Positions 1 to 35,705 of a stretch of 37,676 nt of DNA are shown one piece after another. Position numbers and translations under genes: made by a program. The notes beneath the pieces were generated by a model. That model was not told where the DNA came from and did no database searches. It saw nothing but the letters and a program-made list of their open reading frames with translations. The stretch comes from a virus. Within the stretch, counting starts at the first letter, position 1. Every line of letters starts with the position of its first letter. The stretch lies in the IMG/VR virus record IMGVR_UViG_3300044846_000946, positions 1-37,676 of that record. The stretch is one strand, 5' to 3'.

Positions 1-1116
1 ACTAGCCCTATGCTTTTCGGGGTTAAAACAGAAGGTCAACTAGGCGGAAGAGCAGAACTTCGGGAAGCATCTGAACTATTCCAGAACACCTATGTAAACG
101 CAAAGCAGCAAAGCCTTGAGGAGGTGGTAAATTACCTTTTGAAATTTAATGATATCATTGCCGAACTTGAGATCAAGAAAACTGAGCCTATTGCTTTCCA
201 ATTTAGCGAGCAAATTATTTCTACTAACATGACTCAGGATGAGATCCGTGAAAAGTTGGGACTTGCTCCAATCGAGAAGAAAGAAAGTCAAGGTTCACAG
301 GACATCATCAACTCATTGAACAGCCTTTCCCCATTGATTGCTACCAAGGTAGTAGAGAGCATGGATATAAACGAACTTCGAAGCCTGATTGGATTACCTA
401 CAAAGGTAGAGATAGTGACTCCTGAAAACATAGGTCAAGAACCTGCTGCTGCTTTCTCTGATTACCTACACCTTGAGTGCAGTATCTCAGAACACGATGC
501 AGACATCCTTAAAAAGTTTGAAGGCAAAGGGGTTTCAAAGGACAAATTCAAGGTAATTGAATCTTCAAAGATGCACTTCTCAAGCATGGAAGACTTCATC
601 AAGCAGGATCTATTTGCTGAGTATCAATTGAATGACGTGCAAAAGAAGATCATCACTCAGATCCAACGAAATGATGCGGTGACTATCCCACAAATAGCGA
701 AGGCTGTAGGGATTGATGAGGCTTCTGTGATATCAAGAATCAATACTTTGATAGATGACCAGGTGCTAGTAGAAAAGATTAGCCGTGAAGGCTTGATCAC
801 TAGATCGGTAACCCGTACAGGAGATGCAGCAATCAAAAGACTTCAGCCTGTTACATCCTTTAAGGTGCTTTATTCCTATGAGGAAAGACCAAACGTACCG
901 GAAGCAAAGAGCGGATCTAGACCTTTGTGCGAGAAGTTGTACGGAAGCGGGCTATTCTTTACCAGAGAAGAGATTCAAAACATATCCAATCAGTTAGGCT
1001 ATAGCGTTTTTCAACTTTGTGGAGGATGGTACACCAATCCAAACACGGGTAGAAGAACACCTTATTGCCGACATGAGTGGAAAAGAAATGTAGTAGTAGA
1101 AAAAACATCACGATGA
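1..1116 (+). CDS. Portal protein, C-terminal part (cut by window start)
   Basis: The reading frame is open from base 1 and corresponds to residues from about 297 to the end of the complete 667-aa portal at 31699-33702. The first part holds the end of the portal core (motif GVKTEGQLGGRAELREASE). A winged-helix-like segment follows (around QIAKAVGIDEASVISRINTL), then a C-terminal segment ending in GGWYTNPNTGRRTPYCRHEW. It differs from the full copy at only a handful of residues and has one extra C-terminal arginine, because the stop is TGA three bases later. The stop overlaps the next gene as ATGA. The portal forms the dodecameric DNA gate at the capsid vertex; the role of the C-terminal extension is unknown. 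Confidence 0.85.
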   Translation, partial: TSPMLFGVKTEGQLGGRAELREASELFQNTYVNAKQQSLEEVVNYLLKFNDIIAELEIKKTEPIAFQFSEQIISTNMTQDEIREKLGLAPIEKKESQGSQDIINSLNSLSPLIATKVVESMDINELRSLIGLPTKVEIVTPENIGQEPAAAFSDYLHLECSISEHDADILKKFEGKGVSKDKFKVIESSKMHFSSMEDFIKQDLFAEYQLNDVQKKIITQIQRNDAVTIPQIAKAVGIDEASVISRINTLIDDQVLVEKISREGLITRSVTRTGDAAIKRLQPVTSFKVLYSYEERPNVPEAKSGSRPLCEKLYGSGLFFTREEIQNISNQLGYSVFQLCGGWYTNPNTGRRTPYCRHEWKRNVVVEKTSR

Positions 1117-1706
1117 GCGCAAATGTATTGATGATCAGTGAGCAGTCCTTCAAGGATTTCACTGTGGCTTCCGCAAATATTGACCTGAAGAATGTAACTC
1201 AGGTGATCAAGATGACTCAGGACAGGTACATCCATCCTATCTGTGGGACTGCGCTATATGACAAGATCCTTCTACTAATTTCAAACGGCACTATAGGTCA
1301 AGGAGGTAATGCAGTCTATAAGACTTTTCTAGATTCCTACCTAACAGATACGCTATTCAACTATGTCCTAGGTGAATTGCCTATGGCTATGCAGTATAAG
1401 TTTGTGAACAAAGGGGTAGTGAAGCGCAAAAGCGAGAACATCACAGAGCCTACCTTCGCAGAACTTCAAAGCATTTCTCAGTACTACAAGGGGTATGCTG
1501 AATGGTACGCAGAACGGGCAATAAATTACCTATGTGCTAACTCTGAGCAGTACCCTGAGTACTTGAATCCTGGTAGTGATGTGACTACCATCCAACCTGT
1601 GAGCAATCAGTACAAGGTGGCTATCAATCTAGGACGTGGGGACTATGAAGATCACCGACCATACAGCGAAAGATACCAAGGCAATCGATACAAAAAACCA
1701 TTCTAA
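1113..1706 (+). CDS. Head-tail connector-like protein
   Basis: This 197-aa protein starts at ATG 1113 (MSANVLMISEQ), overlapping the portal stop as ATGA. The same start is used in the second copy (33702), where no upstream extension is possible, so the longer in-frame start at 1077 is rejected. The position directly after the portal, the helical N-terminal half and the family pattern known in Bacteroidota phages (DUF6712-like, from memory) suggest an adaptor that docks under the portal. The C-terminus is charged and tyrosine-rich (YKVAINLGRGDYEDHRPYSE). It differs from copy 2 at about five residues, clustered at ILLLISNG versus ILSLIVAG. No catalytic motif is visible. Confidence 0.6.
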   Translation: MSANVLMISEQSFKDFTVASANIDLKNVTQVIKMTQDRYIHPICGTALYDKILLLISNGTIGQGGNAVYKTFLDSYLTDTLFNYVLGELPMAMQYKFVNKGVVKRKSENITEPTFAELQSISQYYKGYAEWYAERAINYLCANSEQYPEYLNPGSDVTTIQPVSNQYKVAINLGRGDYEDHRPYSERYQGNRYKKPF

Positions 1707-1708
1707 AA

Positions 1709-1840
1709 ATGGCTTATTCTAAAAACGAAAAAAAGTTAAAAGAATTCCTAAGCAAGCAGCATGACATTAGTAGACCTAGTCAAAAAGTTAAAAGCAATCC
1801 AAGAAGCGCACCCAATGATCCGAACCTTCGGAGAGGGTGA
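1709..1840 (+). CDS. Conserved 43-aa small protein overlapping the next gene
   Basis: This short ORF begins MAYSKNEKKLKEFLSKQ and ends inside the following gene, which starts at 1761 in another frame. The counterpart at 34298-34429 has the same length. In the 17 codons before the overlap, ten codons differ between copies; nine of these changes are synonymous and the tenth is Phe to Tyr. That pattern is what a translated, selected reading frame gives. The lysine-rich N-terminus is the constrained part. The tail beyond the overlap diverges and may be only a by-product of the other frame. Function unknown; its place between connector and neck genes suggests a virion assembly role or translational coupling. 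Confidence 0.7.
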   Translation: MAYSKNEKKLKEFLSKQHDISRPSQKVKSNPRSAPNDPNLRRG

Positions 1841-2198
1841 CATCTATGACTATGTAGATAATGGGGGTGAAATTCAATACCCTGTACTTTGGACTGTGGT
1901 ACGGCCTGCCATTTATAACTCTACTACTTTACGCTATGACCTAGTCCTTCTCTTTGCTGATCTATTGACTGAAGACAAGAGCAACAGGCTACAGATCCAA
2001 AGTGACCAGATGCTCGTGGCTTTGGATGTCCTAGCAAAATTAAAACTTGACAATGACTACACCTTTAATACTGCTCCTAACTCGACTCTGGAATTCTTTC
2101 AGGAACGCTTTGATGACTTTACAGCCGGTGTATCAATCTCTGTACAGGTTACTGCTCCAATGCCTTTAGACCTTTGTTCCATCCCTACCGAATCATAA
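1761..2198 (+). CDS. Neck / tail-completion-like protein
   Basis: This 145-aa protein begins MTLVDLVKKLKAIQEAHP and is identical in amino-acid sequence to its copy at 34350-34787 despite many synonymous base changes, so it is under strong purifying selection. A helical start is followed by a mixed, probably beta-rich body (VLWTVVRPAIYNST, VSISVQVTAPMPLDLC). The size and position after the portal and connector fit a head-completion or tail-terminator protein of Bacteroidota siphophages. That is inferred from position; I see no diagnostic motif. No signal peptide or membrane segment is visible. Confidence 0.5.
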   Translation: MTLVDLVKKLKAIQEAHPMIRTFGEGDIYDYVDNGGEIQYPVLWTVVRPAIYNSTTLRYDLVLLFADLLTEDKSNRLQIQSDQMLVALDVLAKLKLDNDYTFNTAPNSTLEFFQERFDDFTAGVSISVQVTAPMPLDLCSIPTES

Positions 2199-2199
2199 A

Positions 2200-2403
2200 A
2201 TGAATATCTTGCAGAAAGATGAAATAGGAGTACCCTCCACATTAGTAGCAGTACTTGCGAATGTTTTCCAAGCCATAGGAATAGACTTCTTGAATGTGGT
2301 CTTGACTATGATCATTTCGATGCTTTCAATCGTGTGGCTAGTGTATAAAATCAAAAACGAAAAAGCAATTTTTGACAGCAGGAAAGATGAAGAAGGGAAG
2401 TAG
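2200..2403 (+). CDS. Small membrane protein, holin candidate (67 aa)
   Basis: A short N-terminus (MNILQKDEIGVP) leads into one long or two short hydrophobic segments (residues about 14-48), followed by a highly charged tail (KIKNEKAIFDSRKDEEGK). This arrangement, upstream of the amidase in both copies, fits a holin or similar lysis-control membrane protein. The copy at 34789-34992 differs by a single Met to Leu in the membrane segment. Its stop overlaps the start region of the basic 40-aa gene. Holin function is inferred from topology and position only; a virion-associated membrane protein is the alternative. Confidence 0.5.
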   Translation: MNILQKDEIGVPSTLVAVLANVFQAIGIDFLNVVLTMIISMLSIVWLVYKIKNEKAIFDSRKDEEGK

Positions 2404-2509
2404 TGTTCAGAAGGCTTCTGCATTTGGGAAGCGCAGAAAAGGGAAGGCTAAAAAATCCTATGCAAAAAACGAAAGCAGACCTAAAAAATACAGAGGTCAA
2501 GGCAGATAG
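2387..2509 (+). CDS. Small basic protein (40 aa), identical in both copies
   Basis: Starting at ATG 2387 inside the end of the 67-aa membrane gene, this ORF encodes a very basic peptide (MKKGSSVQKASAFGKRRKGK, ending RPKKYRGQGR). The copy at 34976-35098 encodes the same 40 residues; all three differing codons before the stop are synonymous, while the overlapping alternative frame changes its amino acids. This is therefore the coding frame here. It may bind nucleic acid or another acidic partner, judging from charge alone. The stop codon sits exactly at the module junction: TAG here, while in copy 2 a TGA overlaps the amidase start. Confidence 0.75.
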   Translation: MKKGSSVQKASAFGKRRKGKAKKSYAKNESRPKKYRGQGR

Positions 2510-2639
2510 AAAACGCTTGACCATTTGGGCTATTTCTTTGATAGTGATAGCAAGTGTGGCGGCCTATGTTCTTGAGCCTGAATCTCTCAAATACTTTTTA
2601 GAGTTCCTTCATATCATTATCACATCCTTAGTCATCTAA
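2460..2639 (+). CDS. Small membrane protein (59 aa), copy-1 specific
   Basis: The frame starting at ATG 2460 overlaps the last 50 bases of the basic 40-aa gene. It has a charged N-terminus (MQKTKADLKNTEVKADRKR) and two hydrophobic stretches (TIWAISLIVIASVAAYVL and YFLEFLHIIITSLVI), the layout of a class II holin-like protein. A longer GTG start at 2403 is possible but would lie entirely over the basic gene, so I prefer 2460. The stop overlaps the next start as TAATG. In copy 2 this frame stops after about 20 codons, and a different membrane protein (35517-35705) lies after the amidase instead. Confidence 0.5.
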   Translation: MQKTKADLKNTEVKADRKRLTIWAISLIVIASVAAYVLEPESLKYFLEFLHIIITSLVI

Positions 2640-3361
2640 TGGAGCAATACAGACCAAGATTAAATCAGCACGAATGGGAGATCATTCAGGGAATTAGAAA
2701 TGCAAAAAGAGGCGGTGGGGTTTTGGAGATTGGAGATCTGCATGAGCCTTTCTGTTTAGATGAATATTTAGATTTCTGCATTGAGCAGAAGCACAGGTAT
2801 AAAACTGAAAAGGTAGTATTCCTTGGTGACATCATTGACAATCACTATGCATCCTATCATGAGACAGATCCTGATGGAATGAGTGCCTTGGATGAATTGA
2901 ACCATGCTATAGATAGAATCAAAAAGTGGAGGGATGCTTTTCCTGAAGCCGTGGTGATTATTGGAAACCATGACAGGCTAGTAATGAGAAAAGCCTACAC
3001 GGCAGGGATTTCAAAGAAATGGATTAAGACCTACAAGGAAGTGCTTGAAACTCCAGGCTGGGACTTTGTTGAGGAGCATATCCTATATGACAATCTCTAT
3101 GTTCATGGTGAACAGGGTACTGCTATAGCAAGGGCTAAATCGGATTTGATTTCTACCATTCAGGGGCATAGACATACGGAAGCCTACACGAATTTCGCAG
3201 TAGGAAAGAACTTCAAACTATTTGGAAAGCAGGTAGGATGTGGAATAAATAAGCAGACCTACGCAATGGCATACGCAAAGGCAGGAAAGAAACCTGCTAT
3301 AGGTGTAGGTATTACCTTAGACTACGGAAAACTTCCCTTTAATGTAATGATGGAACTATGA
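2639..3361 (+). CDS. Calcineurin-like metallophosphoesterase, type A
   Basis: This 240-aa protein shows the ordered metal-binding motifs of the calcineurin-like superfamily: GDLHEPF (residues 32-38), GDIIDNH (63-69), GNHD (109-112), HGE (156-158) and GHRH (176-179). It should be a di-metal phosphoesterase; phage members act on nucleic-acid or nucleotide phosphates, but the substrate cannot be read here. It starts on a TAATG overlap with the membrane gene and ends overlapping the amidase start (ATGA-like). Copy 2 lacks this gene and has an unrelated-looking phosphoesterase after the amidase, so the enzyme class is kept while gene and position differ. Confidence 0.85.
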   Translation: MEQYRPRLNQHEWEIIQGIRNAKRGGGVLEIGDLHEPFCLDEYLDFCIEQKHRYKTEKVVFLGDIIDNHYASYHETDPDGMSALDELNHAIDRIKKWRDAFPEAVVIIGNHDRLVMRKAYTAGISKKWIKTYKEVLETPGWDFVEEHILYDNLYVHGEQGTAIARAKSDLISTIQGHRHTEAYTNFAVGKNFKLFGKQVGCGINKQTYAMAYAKAGKKPAIGVGITLDYGKLPFNVMMEL

Positions 3362-3780
3362 AAAGACCTATCAAATATATTGCAATTCATTGTACGGCTT
3401 CCCAACCTACTGCTACTGTGGCAGTCATTCAAAGGCATTGGAAAGATACGCTAGGATGGAAGGCACCTGGCTATCATCTACTGATTGAACCTAATGGAAC
3501 TATTCACAGGCTCATGGATTTTAACGGAATAGCAAACGGGGTAAGGGGTTTCAATAAGGAATCAGTCCACATTTCTTACATAGGAGGAATCACTAAGGAA
3601 GGAAAGCCTATTGACAACCGAACCGATGCGCAGAAAAAAGCCATTTTGCTGTGCATTAAAGAGGTGATTGAGTGGGCAGATAATAAGAAACTAATCATTC
3701 AGGGGCATAGAGACTTTCCAAATGCAAACAAAGCCTGTCCTTGTTTTGATGCAAAGGCGGAATACAGAGGAATCGTATGA
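3358..3780 (+). CDS. N-acetylmuramoyl-L-alanine amidase (endolysin)
   Basis: This 140-aa protein matches the Amidase_2/T7-lysozyme family in length and motifs: IAIHCTAS with His11 near the N-terminus, and GHRDFP with His117 followed by Cys127/Cys129 (KACPCFDA), the expected zinc ligands. It cleaves the amide bond between MurNAc and L-Ala in peptidoglycan during lysis. No signal peptide is visible, so export would depend on a holin; short membrane proteins lie beside it in both genome versions. The copy at 35095-35520 differs at scattered residues. Its start overlaps the phosphoesterase stop here, but overlaps the basic-protein stop in copy 2. Confidence 0.9.
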   Translation: MKRPIKYIAIHCTASQPTATVAVIQRHWKDTLGWKAPGYHLLIEPNGTIHRLMDFNGIANGVRGFNKESVHISYIGGITKEGKPIDNRTDAQKKAILLCIKEVIEWADNKKLIIQGHRDFPNANKACPCFDAKAEYRGIV

Positions 3781-3998
3781 AAGTAGAACTATCATTCAAC
3801 CTACCGGAGGAAGAGGAAGACTTCCGAGCAGCCATAAACGGGCAGAAGTTAAGGTCTATTACCTATGACTTTGACCAATGGCTAAGAAACCAAATCAAGT
3901 ACGAGGATCTCACGGATGAGGAGTATCAAACCTTGCAAAAATGCAGAGATCAGTTTAGGGCTATGTTTTACGATGAAGACCTTTTTATAACTCAATGA
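3777..3998 (+). CDS. Conserved 73-aa acidic phage protein
   Basis: The protein begins MKVELSFNLPEEEEDFRAAI and contains FDQWLRNQIKYEDLTDEEY. I recognise this from memory as a frequent, unnamed family of Bacteroidota phages (N-terminal beta strand, then an acidic helical body). The copy at 36605-36826 has identical amino acids. It overlaps the preceding gene at ATGA and the following gene by four bases, so it is translationally coupled within the lysis operon. Function unknown; no catalytic or membrane features are visible. Confidence 0.7.
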   Translation: MKVELSFNLPEEEEDFRAAINGQKLRSITYDFDQWLRNQIKYEDLTDEEYQTLQKCRDQFRAMFYDEDLFITQ

Positions 3999-4543
3999 AA
4001 GAACTGCTAGATGATGAACGGATCAGGATTGCTACCATCTCTTTTTTGATAGGTGTAATTCTTGCTTTTGTGATCTACCCTAGACCTGAAGTAGAGACAG
4101 TCTACAAAACAGAAACGAAGGTAGAAAGGGATACAATTTACTCTCATGTAGTGGACACTATTTATGTGCCAAAAACTAGGATAAAAACTCAGGTTTTAAG
4201 GGATACAGTACTAAAAGAATATAAGCCTAAAATAAGCCTGTTTAAGACCTCCTTTCCTTCGGACTATGGAAGTACCCATGTAAGCGGAGAAGTCCTTGGA
4301 GAAGTCCTTAAAATGACTGCTACAAACGATTTCAAAATACCTGTGGTAACGAACACAATAACCGAAACAAAAACAGAGACAATAATCAAGAAGCCGAAGG
4401 GGATTTACCTGGGTGCTGGAGTGAATTCTCTCTTGCAACCTAGCGCAAAAGTTTCCTACCTTGATAACAAGTACTTGTTTTCGTATCAATTCGAACCACT
4501 GCAGGGAGTGCATCAGGTAGGGGTATCAAAAAAACTATTCTAA
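3995..4543 (+). CDS. Membrane-anchored spanin-like protein (182 aa)
   Basis: One N-terminal membrane segment (residues about 12-29, IATISFLIGVILAFVIY) anchors a long periplasm-facing region rich in Thr, Lys and Glu with heptad-like repeats (VETVYKTETKVERDTIY). The C-terminal part (YLGAGVNSLLQPSAKVSYL ... VGVSKKLF) looks beta-rich. It follows the amidase closely, the usual place of inner-membrane spanins, and resembles DUF6808-type proteins of Bacteroidota phages (from memory). Spanin function is inferred from topology and context. Copy 2 has about ten substitutions, more than its neighbours, with the TETIIKK stretch shifted to TETKVIK. Confidence 0.5.
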   Translation: MKELLDDERIRIATISFLIGVILAFVIYPRPEVETVYKTETKVERDTIYSHVVDTIYVPKTRIKTQVLRDTVLKEYKPKISLFKTSFPSDYGSTHVSGEVLGEVLKMTATNDFKIPVVTNTITETKTETIIKKPKGIYLGAGVNSLLQPSAKVSYLDNKYLFSYQFEPLQGVHQVGVSKKLF

Positions 4544-4789
4544 ATGTGGATTGAAATAGAAGTCATGCTATCAGGTCAGACCATTGACTGGAAGGCTTTG
4601 GGCTTAGAGGTGCAGCATGAATGGTCTAGAAGAATGGTAAGGATTGGTGACATCCAATATGTGCAGGAGTTACTGCATGATATCCAGATCATCTACTTCT
4701 ACGATAATACTTCCTGCTTGATCAAGGGCAGGTATCAAGATATTAGGACTGAGATCCTTCACCTAGATCAGGAAAGTGATTTAGATTAA
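4544..4789 (+). CDS. Hypothetical 81-aa protein, last gene of the late operon
   Basis: This protein of unknown function begins directly after the spanin-like gene stop (MWIEIEVMLSGQTIDW). It is compact, with an acidic C-terminus (HLDQESDLD). The copy at 37372-37617 has one Ala to Ser change, so the sequence is strongly conserved. The VRIGDIQYVQELLHDIQIIYF stretch suggests an alpha/beta fold. It is the final gene before the terminator, so it should be expressed with the lysis genes. Confidence 0.6.
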   Translation: MWIEIEVMLSGQTIDWKALGLEVQHEWSRRMVRIGDIQYVQELLHDIQIIYFYDNTSCLIKGRYQDIRTEILHLDQESDLD

Positions 4790-4848
4790 TTCGGATTTTT
4801 TTCGAAAAAGTGCATGAAATTTTACTAAAAGTTAATGCATTTTTATAT
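4790..4848 (+). terminator. Bidirectional intrinsic terminator
   Basis: A hairpin at 4811-4839 has 13-base arms with 11 paired positions and the loop ACT, followed on the plus strand by TTTTTATAT. On the minus strand the same hairpin is followed by CTTTTT. It sits between the rightward late operon and the leftward genes ending at 4904, so it can stop both. A smaller palindrome, TTCGGA...TTCGAA (4790-4806), precedes it; in copy 2 it is the perfect TTCGGA...TCCGAA, so the base change is compatible with G-U pairing. Confidence 0.8.
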
Positions 4849-8434: not shown

Positions 8435-8796
8435 CCAGAGAAGAAATAATCACCGAACTAAATCACAGGTCTACCCAAAAGTACTTGGTGTACCTAGCCC
8501 TGCAAGAGATCATGCTTGACTACTACGAGGATGTATCGATGCTCAAGTTCTTTGACCTGGATCTACAGACCAAGCACAAGAATATGATCAATGCATTGAA
8601 GCGAAAGTCTACACAGGCTTTCAGATACCTTGAGGGGTACGATAATGGCGAAGCAACTATCAAGCAGTTTCACGAGTTTGTGACCTTATTCGAAAAACTG
8701 CACACGGCTATAGATGAAGGAGGGAGCATCTTCCATGATTGCCTGAATGCTGTAGAAGAAATCCTTGATAAGCATGAAAAGGCGCAGGGTAACTGA
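8431..8796 (+). CDS. Hypothetical 121-aa helical protein
   Basis: An all-helical protein (MTREEIITELNHRSTQKYL; QTKHKNMINALKRKSTQAFR; LFEKLHTAIDEGGSIFHDCL) with no recognised family. It overlaps the upstream HTH gene by four bases and the downstream 49-aa HTH ORF by 23 bases. Similar helical proteins accompany replication genes in Bacteroidota phages, but the function is unknown. Confidence 0.55.
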   Translation: MTREEIITELNHRSTQKYLVYLALQEIMLDYYEDVSMLKFFDLDLQTKHKNMINALKRKSTQAFRYLEGYDNGEATIKQFHEFVTLFEKLHTAIDEGGSIFHDCLNAVEEILDKHEKAQGN

Positions 8797-8923
8797 AGAG
8801 GAAAAGCAGTTAATCTTTGAAGGATGGCAGGATAGAAAGCCTATTAAGATGATTGCTATTGAATTAGGCAGATGCTACGGGACTGTCTATACTGAATTAA
8901 AAAAAAGGTATCTAGTAGGATAA
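8774..8923 (+). CDS. Small HTH protein (49 aa)
   Basis: The ORF starting at ATG 8774 encodes a basic start (MKRRRVTEEEKQLIFEGWQD) and a clear helix-turn-helix (IKMIAIELGRCYGTVYTELK) ending in KKRYLVG. It resembles the homeodomain-like HTH_38 unit seen at the N-terminus of IS30-type transposases, but no catalytic domain follows, so it is probably a small DNA-binding regulator. It overlaps the previous gene by 23 bases and is the last gene before the structured RNA at 8952-9044. Confidence 0.65.
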   Translation: MKRRRVTEEEKQLIFEGWQDRKPIKMIAIELGRCYGTVYTELKKRYLVG

Positions 8924-8937
8924 TTAAAAAAAGTTTC

Positions 8938-8945
8938 TATATTCG
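8938..8945 (+). promoter_or_regulatory. Candidate -7 element TATATTCG before the structured RNA
   Basis: TATATTCG resembles TAnnTTTG and is identical to the -7 candidate upstream of the XRE gene (14215-14222), including flanking C and GT. It would start a transcript near 8952, precisely at the beginning of the folded RNA. No convincing -33 element is visible, so an activator may be needed or the match may be chance. Confidence 0.35.
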
Positions 8946-8951
8946 TGAATC

Positions 8952-9044
8952 AAGAATCATTTTTGAGGTAGGAGCCAAAAATGATTTTCCAAAGGTTTAC
9001 TAAACCTAGCCCGACAGACTCCTACCTGTTGGGCTTTTTTATTT
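8952..9044 (+). ncRNA. Structured RNA with kissing-loop/pseudoknot and terminator
   Basis: Three hairpins stand in a row. Hairpin 1 (8955-8986) has a perfect 11-bp stem with the loop AGGTAGGAGC. Hairpin 2 (8993-9007) is AGGTTT-ACT-AAACCT. Hairpin 3 (9008-9035) has a 10-bp stem, one pair being G-U, with the loop ACTCCTAC, followed by a U-run. Loop 1 (8966-8974) is complementary over nine bases to 9019-9027; seven of these are exactly the loop-3 bases, allowing loop-loop kissing. It may be an independent small RNA or a leader attenuator, because the start codon of the replication gene lies only a few bases after the U-run. Confidence 0.65.
9008..9044 (+). terminator. Intrinsic terminator before the replication gene
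   Basis: AGCCCGACAG pairs with CTGTTGGGCT across an 8-base loop (10 bp, one G-U pair), followed by TTTTTTATTT. It ends 3 bases before ATG 9048. Constitutive termination here would silence the replication genes unless another promoter or antitermination acts, so regulated attenuation is plausible. Confidence 0.8.
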
Positions 9045-9047
9045 ACC

Positions 9048-9764
9048 ATGAAAAAAGAAGCGTATTACTTTTCGCACGATGCAAATGCGAAAGATGATCC
9101 TAAGATCCTTCAACTAAGAATGGAAATGGGATGGGAAGGCTACGGCCTTTTTTGGGCATTGATTGAGATGCTGAGAAATGAATCTGATCACAGGATGCGA
9201 ACGCATTACAAAAGCATTGCATTCGCATTGCATACGCAAGAGGATAGCATAAAGAAGTTGATTAATGACTTTGATTTATTCGCTATTGAAGGTGAATACT
9301 TCTGGTCTGAAAGTCTTTTGAAAAGGATGGAGATGAAAGAATCTAAGTCTGAAAAGGCTAGACAATCCGCGAAGAAACGTTGGAATCAAGATAATGATGC
9401 GAACGCAATGCGAACGCATAGCGATAGCAATGCAAATGCTATGCAATTAAAGGAAAGTAAAGTAAAAGAAAGTAAAGGAAATATATTAACAGAGGAAAGT
9501 CATAATGAGATATTCAGAAAACTATGGGCATCTAGTATTTGGCTTGAAGGAATAGCAATAAAGAATAAAGTAAAAAAGGAGGAAGTACAGAATCACCTAA
9601 ATGATTTTAGACTTGAATGCATCTTAAAGGATGAATTAAAGGTAGATGAAAAGGATGCTAAAAATCACTTCATTAATTGGATGAAAAGAGGAAACCCTAT
9701 ACCTGTAAAGGAAAAAACTGCACCTAAATACGCAAAGTCAACTATAGAAGATAATTGGTGGTAA
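9048..9764 (+). CDS. Lin1244/DUF4373-type replication initiator-like protein
   Basis: The 238-aa protein begins KKEAYYFSHDANAKDDPKI then MEMGWEGYGLFWALIEMLRN, the typical DUF4373 (Lin1244/Lin1753 N-terminal) domain, a winged-helix found in phage replication initiators. A low-complexity linker (residues about 105-150, rich in N, A, S and K) holds iteron-like DNA repeats. The C-terminal part includes a helical segment with FINWMKRGNPIP. It lies upstream of a DnaB-like ATPase, as initiator and helicase-loader genes do. A role in origin binding is inferred from family and context. Confidence 0.75.
   Translation: MKKEAYYFSHDANAKDDPKILQLRMEMGWEGYGLFWALIEMLRNESDHRMRTHYKSIAFALHTQEDSIKKLINDFDLFAIEGEYFWSESLLKRMEMKESKSEKARQSAKKRWNQDNDANAMRTHSDSNANAMQLKESKVKESKGNILTEESHNEIFRKLWASSIWLEGIAIKNKVKKEEVQNHLNDFRLECILKDELKVDEKDAKNHFINWMKRGNPIPVKEKTAPKYAKSTIEDNWW
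9195..9492 (+). other. Candidate replication origin with iterons inside the initiator gene
   Basis: ATGCGAACGCA(T) occurs at 9195-9206, 9397-9407 and 9408-9419; the full 12-mer has inverted arms ATGCG/CGCAT. Related GCATTGCATTCGCATTGC and AATGCAAATGC runs lie at 9214-9237 and 9429-9440. They are followed by an A-rich, G/A-strand-biased stretch (9446-9492) that would melt easily. The arrangement resembles lambdoid origins, where iterons sit inside the initiator gene. It could also reflect only repeated codons for NANAM/DANAM. Confidence 0.45.
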
Positions 9765-11132: not shown

Positions 11133-11936
11133 ATGGAAATTAATAGGATATATAATGAAAGTAATCTTGAAACCATGAAAAGGATGCCTGATAATTACAT
11201 AGATTTGACTGTAACTTCACCACCTTATGATGACTTGCGTGATTACAATGGTTATTCTTTCCCGTTTGAAGAAATAGCATTTCAACTTTTTAGAGTTACA
11301 AAAATAGGAGGTGTTTTGGTTTGGGTTGTAGGTGATGCTGTAGTAAATGGATCAGAAACAGGTTCTTCTTTTAAGCAAGTTTTATTCTTTAAGGAATGCG
11401 GTTTTAATATTCATGATACCATGATTTATTCAAAAACTCCAAGTTTCCCTGCTAAAAATGGAGACAAAAGATATTCTCAGGCTTTTGAATATATGTTTGT
11501 TTTAAGCAAAGGAAATCCAAAAACTGTCAATTTATTGCAGGATAGAAAAAATAAATGGGGAGGTCATCAATCATGGGGTAATGCTTCTGTAAGATTAAAG
11601 AATGGAGAGATAAAAGAAAAGGATAAAATCAATGTTCAGGAATATGGGTATAGGTTTAATATCTGGGAATATGCTACAGGAAAAGGAAATACTACCAGAG
11701 ATGAAATAGCCTTTCAGCATCCTGCAATGTTCCCCGAAAAACTAGCAGAAGACCATATTTTAACCTGGAGCAATGAGAATGATTTAGTCTATGATTGTTT
11801 TGGCGGAAGTGGCACTACTGCTAAAATGGCTAATAAATGGCGAAGGAATTGGATACTTTCAGAAATAAGTTCTGAGTATGTTGAAATAGCAAAAAAAAGA
11901 ATAGAACCATATTTATCACAGACTACATTATTCTAA
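11133..11936 (+). CDS. N6-adenine/N4-cytosine DNA methyltransferase (beta class)
   Basis: Motif IV TSPPY lies at residues 28-32 and motif I DCFGGSGTT at about 221-229, followed by SEISSEYVEIAKKRIE. The order IV then I marks the beta class. The enzyme transfers a methyl group from AdoMet to an exocyclic amino group of A or C; SPPY does not decide which. No partner restriction enzyme is present, so protection against host restriction is the likely role. The gene is visibly more AT-rich than the helicase gene before it, suggesting separate acquisition. The start follows AAAAAAAATAGAC. Confidence 0.88.
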   Translation: MEINRIYNESNLETMKRMPDNYIDLTVTSPPYDDLRDYNGYSFPFEEIAFQLFRVTKIGGVLVWVVGDAVVNGSETGSSFKQVLFFKECGFNIHDTMIYSKTPSFPAKNGDKRYSQAFEYMFVLSKGNPKTVNLLQDRKNKWGGHQSWGNASVRLKNGEIKEKDKINVQEYGYRFNIWEYATGKGNTTRDEIAFQHPAMFPEKLAEDHILTWSNENDLVYDCFGGSGTTAKMANKWRRNWILSEISSEYVEIAKKRIEPYLSQTTLF

Positions 11937-12827
11937 ATGAAACACGGATCATTATTTAGTGGAATTGGAGGATTTGATTTAGCATCGGAATGGATGGGAT
12001 GGGAAAACGTTTTTCATTGTGAATGGAATCCCTTCGGACAAAAAGTACTAAATTATTACTGGCCTAATGCAATCACTTATCATGACATCACAAAAACAGA
12101 TTTTACTATTCACAGAGGAAGAATTGACATCATTACAGGTGGATTCCCCTGTCAGCCTTATTCATCCGCAGGAAAGCGACTCGGCAAGGAGGATGAGAGA
12201 CACCTCTGGCCTGAGATGCTTAGAGCAATTCGAGAGATTCAGCCGACCTGGATCGTGGGCGAAAACGTTCGCGGTCTTACTAATTGGAATGGAGGGTTGG
12301 TATTCGATGAGGTGCAATCTGACTTGGAGGCTCAAGGCTACGAAGTCACACCGTTTCTACTTCCTGCTGCAAGCGTCAATGCACCACACAGAAGGGAAAG
12401 AATTTGGTTCATTGCCTACAATGCTTCCTACTCCAACCTGTTTCGATTCGACAAATGCATCCAACACGATGAAGTCAACACAGGTCAAGGATGGTTCGAT
12501 GCATTCAGTAACATTAACGAGAGCGATGTCAATGGGTATGCTACCCACTCCAATAGCATCGGATTGCGGGGACAAAGTGACAGGATTGGAAACTCAAGAT
12601 TCATTAACAAAAAGAGCAAGGGAAATAACTGGCAAAACTTCCCAACTGTCTCCCCAGTTTGTGATGGAGATGATGGGATTTCCAACAGACTGGACTCTAT
12701 TACCTTTTCTAAATGGAGAAACGAATCAATCAAAGCAGGAGGAAATGCAGTAGTACCTCAGGTAGTGTATCAGATATTTAAAGCCATTGAAAAATATAAT
12801 GAACTAGATAAGCAGTTAACAATATGA
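11937..12827 (+). CDS. dcm: C5-cytosine DNA methyltransferase
   Basis: The motifs run in canonical order over 296 aa: LFSGIGGFDLA (motif I, residues 6-16), GGFPCQPYS with the catalytic Cys72, GENV (108-111), HRRERIW (151-157) and GGNAVVPQV near residue 274 (motif X). It methylates cytosine at C5; the target-recognition part is about residues 165-265 and short. Translation starts immediately after the previous stop (TAAATG). A second long open frame (12067-12753) covers most of the gene, and base composition turns more GC-rich inside that overlap. Confidence 0.92.
   Translation: MKHGSLFSGIGGFDLASEWMGWENVFHCEWNPFGQKVLNYYWPNAITYHDITKTDFTIHRGRIDIITGGFPCQPYSSAGKRLGKEDERHLWPEMLRAIREIQPTWIVGENVRGLTNWNGGLVFDEVQSDLEAQGYEVTPFLLPAASVNAPHRRERIWFIAYNASYSNLFRFDKCIQHDEVNTGQGWFDAFSNINESDVNGYATHSNSIGLRGQSDRIGNSRFINKKSKGNNWQNFPTVSPVCDGDDGISNRLDSITFSKWRNESIKAGGNAVVPQVVYQIFKAIEKYNELDKQLTI
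12067..12753 (+). CDS. Overprinted ORF inside the C5-methyltransferase gene (228 aa)
   Basis: This 228-codon frame lies wholly within dcm in another register. It is not random-looking: it contains RRMRDTSGLRCLEQFERFSR, PGSWAKTFAVLL, GWYSMRCNLTWRLKATKSHR, two LPTP motifs (about residues 120-123 and 159-162) and LSPQFVMEMMGFPTDWT near the C-terminus. From memory, phage proteins annotated next to or over dcm share this same LPTP...LSPxFVxxMMGFPxxWT plan, so I judge it probably a real second product. Function unknown; a DNA-modification partner is a guess. Ribosomes would have to start at ATG 12067 or 12082 inside dcm. Confidence 0.6.
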   Translation: MQSLIMTSQKQILLFTEEELTSLQVDSPVSLIHPQESDSARRMRDTSGLRCLEQFERFSRPGSWAKTFAVLLIGMEGWYSMRCNLTWRLKATKSHRFYFLLQASMHHTEGKEFGSLPTMLPTPTCFDSTNASNTMKSTQVKDGSMHSVTLTRAMSMGMLPTPIASDCGDKVTGLETQDSLTKRAREITGKTSQLSPQFVMEMMGFPTDWTLLPFLNGETNQSKQEEMQ

Positions 12828-22628: not shown

Positions 22629-25600
22629 ATGGCAGATAAGAGAATAAGTCAACTGATAGAAAGAACGGACATTGCTAATAACGATGTCCTTCCTATAGTA
22701 GCAAGCGGTGCTACCACTACGAACAAGGTAACTGTATCAACCCTTCAGGATTGGATGCAAGATAACCTAGATGTGGGGGTGACTTCGGTAGGTCTTTCAG
22801 TACCTTCTGCCTTTACTGTATCAGGTAGCCCTGTAACTACTTCAGGAAACATTACTATTTCAGGAGCAGGTACTACAGCGCAGTACATCCGTGGAGATGG
22901 TAGCCTAGCAGACTTCCCTTCAAGTATAGGTGGAGGCGGTGCTTCCGTTTCTTACTACCTAAATGGATCAGTATCTCAGGGTACTATCGGAGGTGTGGCT
23001 TATCTTGAATTGAGCAAATCACCTATCTTAGGATCAGGCACAGATTTCACCATCAATGCAGACGGCTACATAGCCTCATTCATTACGGATGCCGGAGATC
23101 CTAGCCTACTTGAGATTCCAGGCGGTAATTGGAATTTTGAAACCTACTTCCAAGCATCTTCAGGAGGTGGAACTCCTTCCTTCTATGTAGAACTTTACAA
23201 GGTAAGTTCAGGCGGTACGGCTACCTTGATAGCGACTAGCAGCGGAAGTCCTGAGTTGATTGCTTTCGGTACTAATACTACCCCTTACTTTTCTTCTTTG
23301 GCAGTTCCTACCACTACCCTAGCCCTTACAGATAGGCTTGCTATCCGTTACTATGTGGCTCACTCAGGTAGGACTATCACGCTACACACAGAAAATAATA
23401 CCCTTTGTCAAATCATTACTACATTCACTACGGGCTTAACTGCTTTGAATGGGTTGACTGCTCAGGTGCAGAACTTCGCAACGGGTACAAGTGGCACGGA
23501 TTTCAATATCTCAAGCGCAAGCACTACCCACACCTTTAATCTTCCAGATGCCTCTGCTTCGAATAGGGGTGCAGTCACTACAGGAAGCCAAGTTTTTGGA
23601 GGTGTTAAGACCTTCGCGAATGGCTTATCTTTACCATCTGCCGGAGGTAGCAATCAGGTGACTAGATTGGTTAACATTGGAACTCTACACGAAGGTAGTG
23701 CTACCTTGAACCAGATAGGATTCAATAGTGCAAATAATATCTACTTCGGAAAAGGTCTTTCAAATGGAGGGGTACTTCAATGGACAAATTCAGCGGTAAG
23801 GTATTACACTTTGCCGGATGCTGATGGTACTCTTGCTTTGGCTAGTCAACTAGGTGCATACCTTCCTTTGGCAGGCGGTACTTTGACCGGTGCTTTGAAT
23901 GGTACTTCCGCAGTTTTTAGCGGTGATGTTCAAAGTGGAACTAGACTCATTGCTGCTGCTTCAAGTCAATCTATTCTTTTGACTCCTAATTCAGGAGGAT
24001 CTACCAACCGAGTAGAGAGTGTTGGCACTTTACCTTTGGCTTTGGTATCTGCTGCTGCTATAACTATGGCGGCAGGAGGAACTACTCCACAGATTACTTT
24101 GACCACAGCAGGCAATGTAGCAATAGGAACAGGATCAGTAACAGGAGCAATTAATGCTGATTCATTAAGGGCAAACTTAATTTTAGGTGCTGCAAATAGC
24201 AATAAGATTTCATTTAATAATGGATCTACAACTGAAACAGGATTTATTTATAATGATCCATCAGAAACTGCTATAGGCTACCCATCAGCAGGGTCATTTA
24301 AAATTCAAAGAGTTGGTGTAGGTAGTGTATTAACCCTAGCCTCCACAGGCGCGGCTACCTTCTCAAGTAGCGTGACGGCTACGCAAGGAGTGTTTAATGG
24401 CAGCGGTACAAATGATTTACTTTACTTAGATGCAGGAATAAATACAGATTTTGCATTTAAAATAGTTTCAGGATCAAATGATGTATTAACTTTAAGAAGG
24501 CAACACGCAACCCTTGGGAATTTAGATATTATAAGTTACGGGTTCAACGGCAACGTAGGCATAGGCACGGCTAGTCCTAGCGGAAGGCTTCATGTTCAAA
24601 ATGGTGTAAGCGGTCAAACAATATCAAATATTACAAACCTAGTTCTTGAGAATAATGGTACTGCTAATGACTTCTATGTTTTCCAAACTGCAACAGCAGG
24701 AGGTGGCAAATCATTTAGCATCACCAACGCAGGCAACGTAGGCATAGGCACGGCTAGTCCAACAAGACCTTTAGAAATATATAGAGCAGGAAGTAGTACG
24801 GCACAAATGAGAATAGGAGATGCTTCAGTTTCAAAGGGTTATTTTGGCGTATTTTCAAATAGTCTTTATATAACTCAAGGAGGTGTCTTTGATGGCTCTT
24901 GGGCTACAGATGGAAGCAATGGAATTTCAAACATTGTTTTAGAAACTACAAATGGAGGTTCTTCAATTGCATTTGGAACTGCTTCAAGCAATACATTTCC
25001 AACCGAAAGAATGCGCATTACTTCGGGGGGGTACTTAAAGGCTACTAGTGATGGAACTTATGTAGCATCTGGAAGTAACTTTCATGAAATGACTGCCACT
25101 GCAAATGGCACAAATTTGATATTGTTTAGACATAAGGGTACAGATCCTTATGGTTTAGAAATTTCATTTTCAGGAGCGACTCCAAATAATAGCACAAACT
25201 GGTTTCAATATTTTCAAGATGCCTCTGCTGCAAGATTTATAGTTCGTTCAAACGGAGGTTTACAAAACTATCAAGCAAATGATGGAAACCTTTCGGATGA
25301 AAGAACAAAGAAAGACATTGAGCCTCTTGAATCTTATTGGGATAAATTTAAGGCTATTGAGATAGTTAAATTCAAGTACAAAGATCAAACTCATGATGAC
25401 TTTAATATCGGAGTAATTGCTCAACAAGTTGAAGCGGTAGCACCTGAATTTGTAGATGTAGATGGATGGGGTAAGCCTGAACTAGATGAAGAAGGTAATG
25501 AGATAGTAAGCGAAGAAGAACCTTTAAAATCTATCTATACCGCTGACCTTTATCATGCTACTATCAAAGTACTACAGGAAGCAATGGCAAAAATAGAAAA

Positions 25601-31702: not shown

Positions 31703-33702
31703 TAAAATTATTTAAGTTTGACCAAGTGCCTCTACCCGTTTACAAAGAAGTAAAAGGGAAAGAATACGTTTACTACGGGGAAAAGAATGACTACCCTAAC
31801 TACCTTCTAAGGATCTACAACAATAGCGCAAAGAATAATGCTATCATTACAGGCAAGGTAGACTATATATGCGGTAATGGGTGGACTGTCAAGGCTGAAG
31901 ATGAAATGCAGAAGGCGAAGGCATTCGGCTTGATTGATAGAATCAACACCAAGGAAGAAAGCCTTAACGAGTTGACTAAAAAACTTGTTACCGATTTATC
32001 TATTTTTGGAGGCTACTACCTACAGGTAATCTGGACAAAAGGAACGGGTGAAATTGCAGAACTTTACCATGTTGACTACTACAAGGTTAGAACGAACCTA
32101 GATAATAGTGAGTTCTACGTTTCGGACAATTGGATCAAGAATGATAACGTCAATCCTAGACCTGATTTCGAGACCTATCCTGCATTCGATCCTAATAACA
32201 CCACAGGCACACAGATCCTGTACTTCAAAGAATACAGAGCAGGGGCAAATACCTACTCTCTACCTGATTATCGAGGGGCTATTTCCTACATTGAACTAGA
32301 TATCTCTATCGGGGAATACCACCTGAACACGATTAATAACGGGATGTTCTCTTCTAAACTTATCAACCTAAACGGGGGTAAGGTAAGCCAGGAGGAAGAG
32401 GATAGAATCGAAAGACAATTCAAGGACAAATTCTCAGGATCTAAGAACGCAGGTAAATTCATGCTTGCTTTCAATGATTCAAAAGAAAATGAGCCTTCAA
32501 TAGTTGACCTATCAGGCACCGAATTAGACAAGCATTTTGACCTTCTAAATAAGACTGTTCAGCAGGAAATTTTTACAGGCCATAAGGTGACTAGCCCTAT
32601 GCTTTTCGGGGTAAAAACAGAAGGGCAACTAGGCGGCAGAGCAGAACTTAGAGAGGCATCTGAACTATTCCAGAACACCTATGTAAACGCAAAGCAGCAA
32701 AGCCTTGAAGAGGTAGTGAATTACCTTTTGAAATTCAATGACATAGTAGCAGAACTTGAGATCAAGAAAACTGAGCCTATTGCTTTCCAATTTAGCGAGC
32801 AGATTATTTCTACTAACATGACTCAGGATGAAATCCGTGAGAAGTTGGGACTTGCTCCAATCGAGAAGAAAGAGAGCCAAGGATCACAGGATATCATCAA
32901 CTCTTTGAACAGCCTTTCTCCATTGATTGCGACTAAGGTAGTAGAGAGCATGGATATAAACGAACTTCGAAGCCTGATTGGATTACCTACAAAGGTAGAG
33001 ATTGTGACTCCTGAGAATATAGGTCAAGAGCCTGCTGCTGCTTTCTCCGATCACCTACATCTTGAGTGCAGTATCTCAGAACACGATGCAGACATCCTTA
33101 AAAAGTTTGAAGGCAAAGGGGTATCTAAGGATAAATTCAAGGTAATTGAAAGTTCAAAGATGCACTTCTCAAGCATGGAAGACTTCATCAAGCAAGATCT
33201 ATTTGCCGAGTACCTACTTAATGAGGTGCAGAAAAAAATCCTAACTCAGATTCAAAGAAATGAGGCCGTAACTATCCCACAAATTGCAAAGGCTGTAGGG
33301 ATTGATGAGGCATCCGTGATCTCAAGAATCAATACTTTGATAGATGATCAGGTGCTAGTGGAGAAGATTAGCCGTGAAGGATTGATTACTAGATCTGTGA
33401 CTAGAACAGGAGAAGCGGCTATCAAAAGGCTTCAGCCTGTGACTTCCTTTAAGGTGCTTTATTCCTATGAGGAAAGACCAAACGTACCGGAAGCAAAGAG
33501 TGGATCACGTCCTTTGTGTGAGAAGTTGTACGGAAGCGGGCTATTCTTTACCAGAGAAGAGATTCAAAACATATCCAATCAGTTAGGCTATTCGGTATTT
33601 CAACTTTGTGGAGGATGGTACACCAATCCAAACACGGGTAGAAGAACACCTTTCTGCCGTCATGAGTGGAAAAGAAATGTAGTAGTTGAAAAGACATCAT
33701 AA
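31699..33702 (+). CDS. Portal protein, complete (667 aa)
   Basis: The N-terminal half is a portal core: EYVYYGEKNDYPNYLLRIYN, VDYICGNGWTV (residues about 53-63), VTDLSIFGGYYLQV, then a wing/stem region and TSPMLFGVKTEGQLGG. It is longer than typical PBSX portals (about 400-500 aa) because of a C-terminal extension of about 200 residues with a winged-helix-like segment (around 505-580) and the motif GGWYTNPNTGRRTP-x-CRHEW near the end. The portal is the DNA entry and exit ring. It lies downstream of the capsid and tail genes, not next to the terminase. Its C-terminal part is duplicated at 1-1116. Confidence 0.88.
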   Translation: MIKLFKFDQVPLPVYKEVKGKEYVYYGEKNDYPNYLLRIYNNSAKNNAIITGKVDYICGNGWTVKAEDEMQKAKAFGLIDRINTKEESLNELTKKLVTDLSIFGGYYLQVIWTKGTGEIAELYHVDYYKVRTNLDNSEFYVSDNWIKNDNVNPRPDFETYPAFDPNNTTGTQILYFKEYRAGANTYSLPDYRGAISYIELDISIGEYHLNTINNGMFSSKLINLNGGKVSQEEEDRIERQFKDKFSGSKNAGKFMLAFNDSKENEPSIVDLSGTELDKHFDLLNKTVQQEIFTGHKVTSPMLFGVKTEGQLGGRAELREASELFQNTYVNAKQQSLEEVVNYLLKFNDIVAELEIKKTEPIAFQFSEQIISTNMTQDEIREKLGLAPIEKKESQGSQDIINSLNSLSPLIATKVVESMDINELRSLIGLPTKVEIVTPENIGQEPAAAFSDHLHLECSISEHDADILKKFEGKGVSKDKFKVIESSKMHFSSMEDFIKQDLFAEYLLNEVQKKILTQIQRNEAVTIPQIAKAVGIDEASVISRINTLIDDQVLVEKISREGLITRSVTRTGEAAIKRLQPVTSFKVLYSYEERPNVPEAKSGSRPLCEKLYGSGLFFTREEIQNISNQLGYSVFQLCGGWYTNPNTGRRTPFCRHEWKRNVVVEKTS

Positions 33703-34295
33703 TGAGCGCAAATGTTTTAATGATATCGGAACAATCCTTCAAGGATTTCACGGTAGCCTCCGCAAATATTGACTTGAAGAACGTCACTCAGGTGATTAAG
33801 ATGACTCAGGATAGGTATATACATCCTATCTGTGGGACTGCGCTTTATGATAAGATTCTCTCTTTGATCGTGGCAGGTACTATAGGTCAAGGAGGAAATG
33901 CAGTATACAAGACCTTGCTAGATTCCTACCTTACAGATACCCTATTCAACTATGTGCTAGGTGAGTTGCCCATGGCTATGCAATATAAGTTCGTAAATAA
34001 GGGGGTAGTAAAGCGCAAGTCTGAGAACATCACAGAACCTACCTTCGCAGAATTGCAGAGCATCAGCCAATACTACAAAGGATATGCTGAATGGTACGCA
34101 GAAAGGGCTATCAATTACCTATGTGCTAACTCTGAGCAGTACCCTGAATACTTGAATCCTGGAAGTGATGTGACTACTATCCAACCTGTAAGCAATCAGT
34201 ACAAGGTGGCTATCAATTTAGGACGTGGGGACTATGAAGATCACCGACCATACAGCGAAAGATACCAAGGCAATCGATACAAAAAACCATTCTAA
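33702..34295 (+). CDS. Head-tail connector-like protein, copy 2
   Basis: This is the 197-aa counterpart of 1113-1706. Its start overlaps the portal stop as TAATG, which fixes the start codon for both copies. It differs from copy 1 at about five residues (ILSLIVAGTIG and KTLLDSY), while many codons differ silently. DNA-facing or portal-binding surfaces cannot be told from sequence. The next small ORF starts two bases after the stop. Confidence 0.6.
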   Translation: MSANVLMISEQSFKDFTVASANIDLKNVTQVIKMTQDRYIHPICGTALYDKILSLIVAGTIGQGGNAVYKTLLDSYLTDTLFNYVLGELPMAMQYKFVNKGVVKRKSENITEPTFAELQSISQYYKGYAEWYAERAINYLCANSEQYPEYLNPGSDVTTIQPVSNQYKVAINLGRGDYEDHRPYSERYQGNRYKKPF

Positions 34296-34297
34296 TC

Positions 34298-34429
34298 ATG
34301 GCCTATTCCAAGAACGAAAAAAAACTCAAGGAATATTTAAGCAAACAAGATGACTCTAGTAGATCTGGTAAAAAAACTCAAGGCAATACAGGAAGCCCAT
34401 CCAATGATAAGAACATTCGGAGAAGGTGA
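34298..34429 (+). CDS. Conserved 43-aa small protein, copy 2
   Basis: The ORF begins MAYSKNEKKLKEYLSKQ and overlaps the next gene from 34350. Both copies keep the same start, the same 43-codon length and the same N-terminal residues apart from Phe to Tyr, while third positions vary freely. After the overlap begins, the two peptides differ (HDISRPSQK versus DDSSRSGKK), as the other frame dictates. Function unknown. Confidence 0.7.
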   Translation: MAYSKNEKKLKEYLSKQDDSSRSGKKTQGNTGSPSNDKNIRRR

Positions 34430-34787
34430 CATCTATGACTATGTAGATAATGGAGGGGAAATTCAATACCCTGTCCTGTGGACTGTGGTACGGCCTGCCA
34501 TTTATAATTCTACTACTCTACGCTATGATCTAGTCCTTCTTTTCGCTGATCTATTGACTGAAGACAAGAGCAATAGGCTACAGATCCAATCGGATCAGAT
34601 GCTTGTGGCTTTGGATGTCCTAGCCAAATTAAAACTTGACAATGACTACACCTTTAATACTGCTCCTAATTCGACTCTGGAATTTTTCCAAGAGCGCTTT
34701 GATGACTTTACAGCCGGTGTATCAATCTCTGTACAGGTTACTGCTCCAATGCCTTTAGACCTTTGTTCCATCCCTACCGAATCATAA
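34350..34787 (+). CDS. Neck / tail-completion-like protein, copy 2
   Basis: The 145 residues are identical to those of 1761-2198 although many bases differ, for example in the first 20 codons. This is the best evidence in the window for strong protein-level constraint. The role, inferred from position after portal and connector, is head completion or tail termination. Confidence 0.5.
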   Translation: MTLVDLVKKLKAIQEAHPMIRTFGEGDIYDYVDNGGEIQYPVLWTVVRPAIYNSTTLRYDLVLLFADLLTEDKSNRLQIQSDQMLVALDVLAKLKLDNDYTFNTAPNSTLEFFQERFDDFTAGVSISVQVTAPMPLDLCSIPTES

Positions 34788-34788
34788 A

Positions 34789-34992
34789 ATGAATATCTTG
34801 CAGAAAGACGAGATCGGAGTACCCTCCACATTAGTAGCAGTCCTTGCGAATGTTTTCCAAGCCATAGGTATAGACTTCTTGAATGTGGTCTTGACTATGA
34901 TCATTTCGCTACTTTCAATCGTGTGGCTAGTGTATAAAATCAAAAACGAAAAGGCAATTTTTGACAGCAGGAAAGATGAAGAAGGGAAGTAG
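34789..34992 (+). CDS. Small membrane protein, holin candidate, copy 2
   Basis: The 67-aa counterpart of 2200-2403 differs only by IISLLSIVW versus IISMLSIVW in the hydrophobic segment. In this version it is followed, after the basic protein, directly by the amidase, so it is the only membrane gene upstream of the endolysin. That favours it as the common lysis-timing protein of the two strains, though a second membrane gene follows the amidase. Confidence 0.5.
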   Translation: MNILQKDEIGVPSTLVAVLANVFQAIGIDFLNVVLTMIISLLSIVWLVYKIKNEKAIFDSRKDEEGK

Positions 34993-35098
34993 TGTTCAGA
35001 AGGCTTCTGCATTTGGGAAGCGAAGAAAAGGGAAGGCTAAAAAATCCTATGCAAAAAACGAAAGCAGACCTAAAAAGTACAGAGGTCAAGGAAGATGA
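34976..35098 (+). CDS. Small basic protein (40 aa), copy 2
   Basis: The same 40 residues as at 2387-2509, ending RPKKYRGQGR. Its stop codon TGA overlaps the amidase ATG (ATGA at 35095-35098), whereas copy 1 uses TAG and then continues into the inserted block. The switch in stop codon marks the exact edge of the module exchange. Confidence 0.75.
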   Translation: MKKGSSVQKASAFGKRRKGKAKKSYAKNESRPKKYRGQGR

Positions 35099-35520
35099 AA
35101 AGACCTATTAAATATATTGCTATCCATTGCACAGCATCTCAACCTACTGCTACCGTGGCAGCCATTCAAAGGCATTGGAAAGATGCGTTAGGATGGAAGT
35201 CACCAGGCTATCATCTACTGATTGAAGCGAATGGCACTATTCACAGGCTCATGGATTTTAATGGAATAGCAAACGGGGTAAGGGGTTTTAATAAGGAATC
35301 AGTTCACATATCCTACATAGGTGGAATCACCAAGGAAGGAAAGCCTGTAGATAACCGAACCGATGCGCAGAAAAAAGCGATTTTGCTGTGCATAAAAGAG
35401 GTATTAGAGTGGAGTGATAATAAGAAACTAATCATTCAGGGGCATAGGGATTTTCCAAATGCAAATAAAGCCTGCCCTTGCTTTGATGCAAAGGCAGAAT
35501 ACAGAGGGATAGTACAATGA
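35095..35520 (+). CDS. N-acetylmuramoyl-L-alanine amidase, copy 2
   Basis: The 141-aa counterpart of 3358-3780 keeps the zinc-ligand motifs (IAIHCTAS; GHRDFP ... KACPCFDA) and adds a C-terminal Gln. Changes such as KDALGWKSPGYH versus KDTLGWKAPGYH are conservative and away from the ligands. It lies immediately upstream of a different membrane gene, overlapping its start by four bases. Confidence 0.9.
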   Translation: MKRPIKYIAIHCTASQPTATVAAIQRHWKDALGWKSPGYHLLIEANGTIHRLMDFNGIANGVRGFNKESVHISYIGGITKEGKPVDNRTDAQKKAILLCIKEVLEWSDNKKLIIQGHRDFPNANKACPCFDAKAEYRGIVQ

Positions 35521-35705
35521 AATTGAAGAACCTAAAAGCATGGAAGACTACAGCCCTAGGAATTATTCTAATTCTGGCTAGTATCTTGAGTGTTTTTGTG
35601 AAAAGTGTATCTTGGTCTGATGCTTCCTTCGGGATAGGGATCGGCCTAGTTTTAATCTTCAGCCCTGATACCATTTTAAGCAGGTTTGAAAAGTTCGTAA
35701 AGTAA
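35517..35705 (+). CDS. Small membrane protein (62 aa), copy-2 specific
   Basis: A basic N-terminus (MKLKNLKAWKTTALGIILIL) leads into a first hydrophobic segment, a short polar turn (KSVSWSD) and a second hydrophobic segment (FGIGIGLVLIFS), ending in a charged helix (SRFEKFVK). This two-segment hairpin form is holin-like. It shares no obvious sequence with the 59-aa membrane protein at 2460-2639, so the two strains appear to carry different membrane genes in this module. It starts in an ATGA overlap with the amidase. Confidence 0.5.
   Translation: MKLKNLKAWKTTALGIILILASILSVFVKSVSWSDASFGIGIGLVLIFSPDTILSRFEKFVK

Follow-up and report, generated by a model that had tools for sequence, protein, structure and literature searches.

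Directly upstream of a replication initiator gene, the phage sequence studied here (IMG/VR virus record IMGVR_UViG_3300044846_000946; one strand of 37,676 nt, all of which we refer to as the window) carries a predicted RNA of about 91 nt that folds into three hairpins, the first and third of which have complementary loops. We regard the three-hairpin structure and the pairing of the loops as near certain. The RNA represents a real, previously unlisted family with very strong loop-loop covariation, and the function proposed below is plausible. The pattern suggests an RNA lock-and-key, not described before, by which replication of these viruses is probably controlled. As for how, we tentatively favour (with a probability of roughly 0.4) a self-recognising leader RNA, encoded by the phage, whose kissing loops pair between RNA copies and control expression of the replication initiator.

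The RNA and its surroundings

The region contains the following features:

8765..8923, + strand: gene for a 52-aa helix-turn-helix protein (ORF list, translation, Pfam HTH_38 E = 6e-8)
8938..8945, + strand: Bacteroidetes -7 promoter element TATATTCG, consensus TANNTTTG (sequence, homologues, PMC6847099)
8950..9040, + strand: predicted three-hairpin kissing-loop RNA, ~91 nt (fold, covariance-model matches, 100 distinct homologues)
8955..8986, + strand: hairpin 1 (H1), 11-bp stem 8955-8965/8976-8986, loop AGGTAGGAGC, kissing core GTAGGAG at 8968-8974
8993..9007, + strand: hairpin 2 (H2), 6-bp stem 8993-8998/9002-9007
9008..9040, + strand: hairpin 3 (H3), an intrinsic terminator (terminator scan), 10-bp stem 9008-9017/9026-9035, loop ACTCCTAC, core CTCCTAC at 9019-9025, T-run 9035-9040
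9048..9764, + strand: replication initiator gene, Lin1244_N + DUF7833 (Pfam PF14297 6e-12, PF25200 9e-9; PHROG 2562 replication initiation protein 3e-24)
9194-9237 and 9396-9450, + strand: two clusters of ~11-bp GATGCGAACGC-like direct repeats within the initiator gene

The compact three-hairpin RNA described in the initial annotation has the sequence given there, and its fold is well above background; H1, H2 and H3 together reach -33.9 kcal/mol (z = -5.5), and 0/200 shuffles were equally good. The exact complementarity claimed for loops 1 and 3 also holds in the window, where AGGTAGGAG (8966-8974) occurs once and is the exact complement of CTCCTACCT (9019-9027); the portion conserved among relatives is the 7-nt core within the loops. 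When both strands were scanned for successive hairpin pairs with 7-nt complementary loops, the second hairpin being a terminator, this was the single site in 37.7 kb, and dinucleotide-shuffled windows gave 0/40 positives in the same scan. The annotation had also recognised no RNA family of this form, in agreement with Rfam 15, which gave no match in the window or for the RNA region at gathering or permissive thresholds; the best permissive matches were far under the cut-off (e.g. RF04312, 25.2 bits vs 59). Within the literature covered by a search on flavobacterial phages, no such RNA is described.

Hairpin 3 is the sole terminator-like site in 8700-9300 and has the build of an intrinsic terminator, a GC-rich stem-loop followed by a U-run (10-bp stem and T6). 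The U-run after hairpin 3 is also found in the homologues examined. At the other end, the Bacteroidetes -7 element TANNTTTG has been placed at -12 to -5 (PMC6847099), so that the predicted +1 lies at about 8950, 4 nt ahead of H1, which would start from +5. Either TATATTTG or TATATTCG is present in 83/100 homologues, and the commonest H1 start among them is +3 (48/100).

The stop codon of the helix-turn-helix gene lies 14 nt upstream of the promoter element. This gene is one of several early genes on the + strand, the others encoding an ERF-type ssDNA annealing protein, a Gp157/Gam-like end-protection protein and small proteins. Downstream, the initiator ATG (9048) is 7 nt past the T-run of hairpin 3, and a DnaB-like helicase gene follows at 10069. 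The GATGCGAACGC-like repeats inside the initiator gene are possible origin iterons, in an arrangement resembling that of lambda O.

Elsewhere in the window, the helicase gene is followed at 11133-12827 by two neighbouring DNA methyltransferase genes, one of the N6/N4 type and one of the C5 type, and a 1002-aa ORF contains an exact 29-nt direct repeat (24549-24577 and 24732-24760). A search for tRNA and tmRNA in the window found none. The window ends (1-4848 and 32590-37676) are ~91% identical repeats with the same gene order; the phage probably has a circularly permuted genome of ~32.6 kb, the ends having been joined from two strains during assembly. The window has no DNA similarity to deposited phages, among which its protein relatives are distant.

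Loop complementarity among homologues

Several hundred homologue loci were collected by protein searches and by patterns in viral contigs. Covariance searches, using a model (R1) of the three stems in which both kissing loops are treated as unpaired, together with scans, yielded 100 distinct homologous RNAs in IMG/VR phages. The R1 model found the RNA once per phage in the 12 phage records tested, and in all loci examined it lies directly upstream of a replication initiator.

In every one of the 100 distinct RNAs, loops 1 and 3 are exactly Watson-Crick complementary over at least 7 nt, compared with 18% when loop-3 sequences are shuffled among the RNAs. Homologues that keep the stems and lose the loop complementarity were named beforehand as the test of the idea, and 0/100 were found. 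The covariance-model check on related phages proposed at the same time likewise came out in its favour: the loop-loop pairs vary compensatorily, and the stems are compensated too. Across the 100 RNAs there are about ten different kissing cores, six of them in the first 74 unique RNAs (GTAGGAG, GTGAGAG, GTGGTAG, GTGGAAG, GTCGGAG and GTCGCAG). Core position 3 is G-C, A-U or C-G, position 4 is G-C or A-U, and position 5 takes all four Watson-Crick pairs. G-U pairs occupy 0/518 cells of the kiss vs 19/552 in H1 and 46/444 in H3, a contrast that is suggestive only, because the rows are related and the types few (about ten). The most demanding test is that of seven diverged RNAs scoring 33-65 bits with the loop-blind model (L401, L402, L406, L409, L410, L411 and L412): all keep an exact complement of 7-8 nt, and five of them carry previously unseen cores: GTCGTAG (two RNAs), GCGAGAG, GAGAGAG and AGGAGAGA.

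The initial annotation had further noted that pairing of all nine bases would open the base of the terminator loop. This 9-nt pairing is exact in the window, but the extension that would open the terminator stem is seen in just 29/74 unique RNAs, with 33/74 matching over 7 nt. Since the extension is restricted to some types, opening of the terminator stem by the kiss is not conserved. A ligand riboswitch was also considered and rejected, as little is conserved besides the stems, the fixed core ends and the loop pairing.

Among the initiators downstream of the RNA, Pfam or the sequence itself distinguishes at least three N-terminal modules (Lin1244_N, DUF6291 and 'GWIKVHRQL'), and a fourth, 'MANKF', was seen twice; the DUF7833 C-terminus is common to the Lin1244 and GWIKVHR initiators. 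As the RNA is kept beside differing initiator classes, it belongs to the site and not to one gene family. The exchange within the initiator is an observation in its own right: the N-terminal domain (window 9048-9350 and homologues) is swapped among about four unrelated classes, with the C-terminal DUF7833 (where scanned) and the helicase retained, and this may represent a modular swap of replication specificity.

Outside these phages, the RNA was not found in ~790 Bacteroidota genomes (397 from the family and 395 from the class, around two genomes) apart from two weak matches, the filters in these large searches being stricter and weak relatives possibly lost. L269, the one of the two that was inspected, is an ordinary terminator and has no kissing loops. 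No similar elements were found upstream of distant Lin1244 genes in the 248 kb scanned. One relative (L407, 1250-1700) wholly lacks the RNA and its terminator; its helicase is similar (78%) and its initiator DUF6291-like. It offers a natural deletion for comparison and shows that the RNA is not indispensable. A search for tyrosine integrases found none in 18 phages with the RNA, some of whose records may be incomplete. For this reason the phages look virulent, and lysogenic immunity of the P4 type is unlikely.

Exchange of loop types

On a tree of the 560 upstream bases, the 96 rows require no fewer than 44 changes of loop type, where the possible minimum is 5 and shuffling gives a mean of 57.5; type is therefore almost unlinked to upstream ancestry. 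We compared all close pairs, with upstream DNA at least 88% identical. Among these, RNAs of the same type are 98.8% identical, above their flanks (93-96%), and RNAs of different types ~79%, indicating that whole RNA alleles are replaced. Diversifying selection through point mutations in the RNA was rejected on the same data, which show whole-allele replacement instead. Selection for mutually orthogonal loops was also rejected: the observed loops are no better than random triplets (P ~0.45), and as random loops would be about equally orthogonal, nothing points to selection for mutual exclusion.

The initiator N-terminus was scored over its first 300 nt, as exchanged below 80% identity and as kept at 90% or above. 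Loop type differs in 92% of pairs with an exchanged N-terminus vs 21% of those with a kept one. The RNA thus tends to travel with the initiator N-terminus and the possible origin iterons, and sometimes travels alone. An example of the latter is the pair L194/L198, where the upstream DNA is 93% identical, the RNA 80% and the downstream DNA 99%.

Possible modes of action and comparison with known RNAs

If the RNA is a self-recognising leader, most transcripts would stop at hairpin 3 and yield a short RNA of ~90 nt. With 7 nt between the T-run and the ATG, a promoter would not fit there, and expression of the initiator would depend wholly on transcripts that continue past hairpin 3. Copies of the RNA would then kiss through loop 1 of the first and loop 3 of the second; both copies may be free, or a free copy may meet a nascent or read-through leader. 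The amount of short RNA, hence phage copy number, would thereby feed back on read-through into the initiator or on its translation. Such control would recognise its own kind, because only matching loop types pair. Its sign is most likely negative, although this is a guess. Structure close to the initiator start codon may also hinder translation; in Flavobacterium, structure near start codons lowers initiation (PMC6847099).

Whether the loops meet within or between molecules depends on the space between the hairpins. The linkers are mostly 0-5 nt between H1 and H2 and mostly 0 nt between H2 and H3, and by a rough geometric estimate a 7-bp kiss within one RNA needs a sharp bend if H2 is folded; together, these favour pairing between RNAs. 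Pairing within one molecule would have the advantage of local concentration, and H2, at about -4.4 kcal/mol, could open.

An attenuator or tertiary fold acting in cis only is a possible, though doubtful, alternative: loops 1 and 3 would kiss inside a single RNA whose H2 is open or bent, and this would stabilise or delay the terminator hairpin with no intermolecular recognition. The kissing partners are always in the same RNA, 40-45 nt apart. A partner elsewhere in the phages was not found, own-type 7-mers (as type-matched sites in trans) showing no enrichment there, and the cores are unpaired in predicted folds, where a melted H2 would free enough linker. The conserved H2 and the short linkers nevertheless speak against a 7-bp kiss that leaves every stem intact, and hairpin 3 would be expected to fold faster than the kiss could form, leaving little time to affect termination. 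We prefer pairing between copies to the cis-only fold on account of the short linkers with H2 folded and the lack of another partner in the phage.

It is unlikely that this is a stand-alone small RNA with another role (with a host target, as a protein binder or as a counter-defence decoy), hairpin 3 ending both the early operon and the RNA, and the initiator being expressed from leaky read-through. The RNA does have its own promoter element and terminator, lies on the same strand as the upstream early genes, is conserved beside unrelated initiator classes and is more conserved within a type than its flanks are. However, a free-standing role sits poorly with a position always directly ahead of the initiator and nowhere else in the phage, and with the tendency of the RNA to be swapped jointly with the initiator module.

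Much less probable again is an antiterminator like the put RNA of HK022, in which the RNA, while still nascent, would bind RNA polymerase and keep it from terminating. The early-operon position and the stem-loops near the 5' end would suit it, and HK022 put RNA needs no protein factors (PMC9378689), but the RNA would need to act on its own terminal terminator, and its stems and loops vary freely with pairing alone conserved, unlike a polymerase-binding surface. In DNA the two cores are an inverted repeat, and a small helix-turn-helix protein is encoded next to the RNA. We nevertheless give hardly any weight to a DNA-level feature, with the cores serving as the site of a DNA-binding protein, because the spacing varies by 5 bp, about half a helical turn, the cores are always in hairpin loops with compensated stems, and loop type does not track the upstream genes.

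Returning to pairing between copies, a more specific version, which we consider improbable as a whole, would make the RNA a loop-typed means of self-recognition for apparently virulent phages. A resident phage's short RNA would pair only with leaders of the same type and shut or tune their initiator, and the types would act as RNA incompatibility groups between co-infecting phages, exchanged by recombination together with the initiator/origin module. To our knowledge, few natural RNAs recognise their own copies via complementary loops. Functional RNA multimers have themselves been said to be rarely observed (PMC7357161). The RNA family described here has about ten loop types that can replace one another, and it occupies the replication switch of a phage group that is widespread. 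Pairing of its loops between molecules would make it a system of RNA incompatibility among lytic phages, and would also provide RNA engineering with a naturally occurring set of 7-bp kissing pairs.

Several known RNAs share parts of this design, and IsrK, P4 CI and IncK RNAI are precedents, none of them homologous to the phage RNA. The prohead (packaging) RNA of phi29 is likewise one RNA with two mutually complementary loops (PMC7357161), as found here in 100/100 RNAs. It pairs between copies by a 4-bp kiss in the packaging motor, whereas the RNA described here has 7 bp, ends in a terminator and lies beside a replication gene, in a phage that encodes a Terminase_3 large subunit and portal and not a motor of the phi29 type. 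HK022 put is also a phage early leader RNA with stem-loops that influence termination (PMC9378689), but it acts via polymerase binding, and no loop-loop covariation has been described for it.

P4 CI RNA stops transcription into replication genes (as described in PMC4825925). It is on the same strand as its target, is complementary to sequences in the same leader and acts just before the replication genes. P1 c4 RNA is similarly same-strand and complementary to its own leader, and acts just before antirepressor genes. CI, however, arises by processing of a longer leader, in which the sites it pairs with flank it on either side; instead of the flanking complementary sites of P4 CI and P1 c4, the phages described here, without tyrosine integrase in 18 records, have both partners inside one 90-nt RNA.

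IsrK of prophage Gifsy-1 is a short RNA that ends at a leaky terminator and acts on its own read-through mRNA (PMC4825925). The short form comes from an intrinsic terminator, and the read-through mRNA from the same promoter contains it; the predicted promoter element, the terminator and the gene 7 nt further on fit this arrangement. In contrast to our RNA, which is known from sequence and precedes a replication initiator, the short form of IsrK acts in trans and activates orf45-anrP translation in a temperate phage (PMC4825925), and no typed loop-loop complementarity has been described for it.

Typed recognition is instead familiar from the antisense copy control of plasmids (ColE1 RNAI/RNAII, IncK RNAI, pT181). 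These RNAs are read from the opposite strand and match their targets from end to end, whereas complementarity in the phage RNA is confined to 7-9 nt in two loops that one strand encodes. The proposed likeness is that loop sequence sets the recognition type, that a kissing intermediate forms, and that expression of a replication gene, or priming, is controlled; in IncK RNAI, changes in the loop switch compatibility (PMC10724649).
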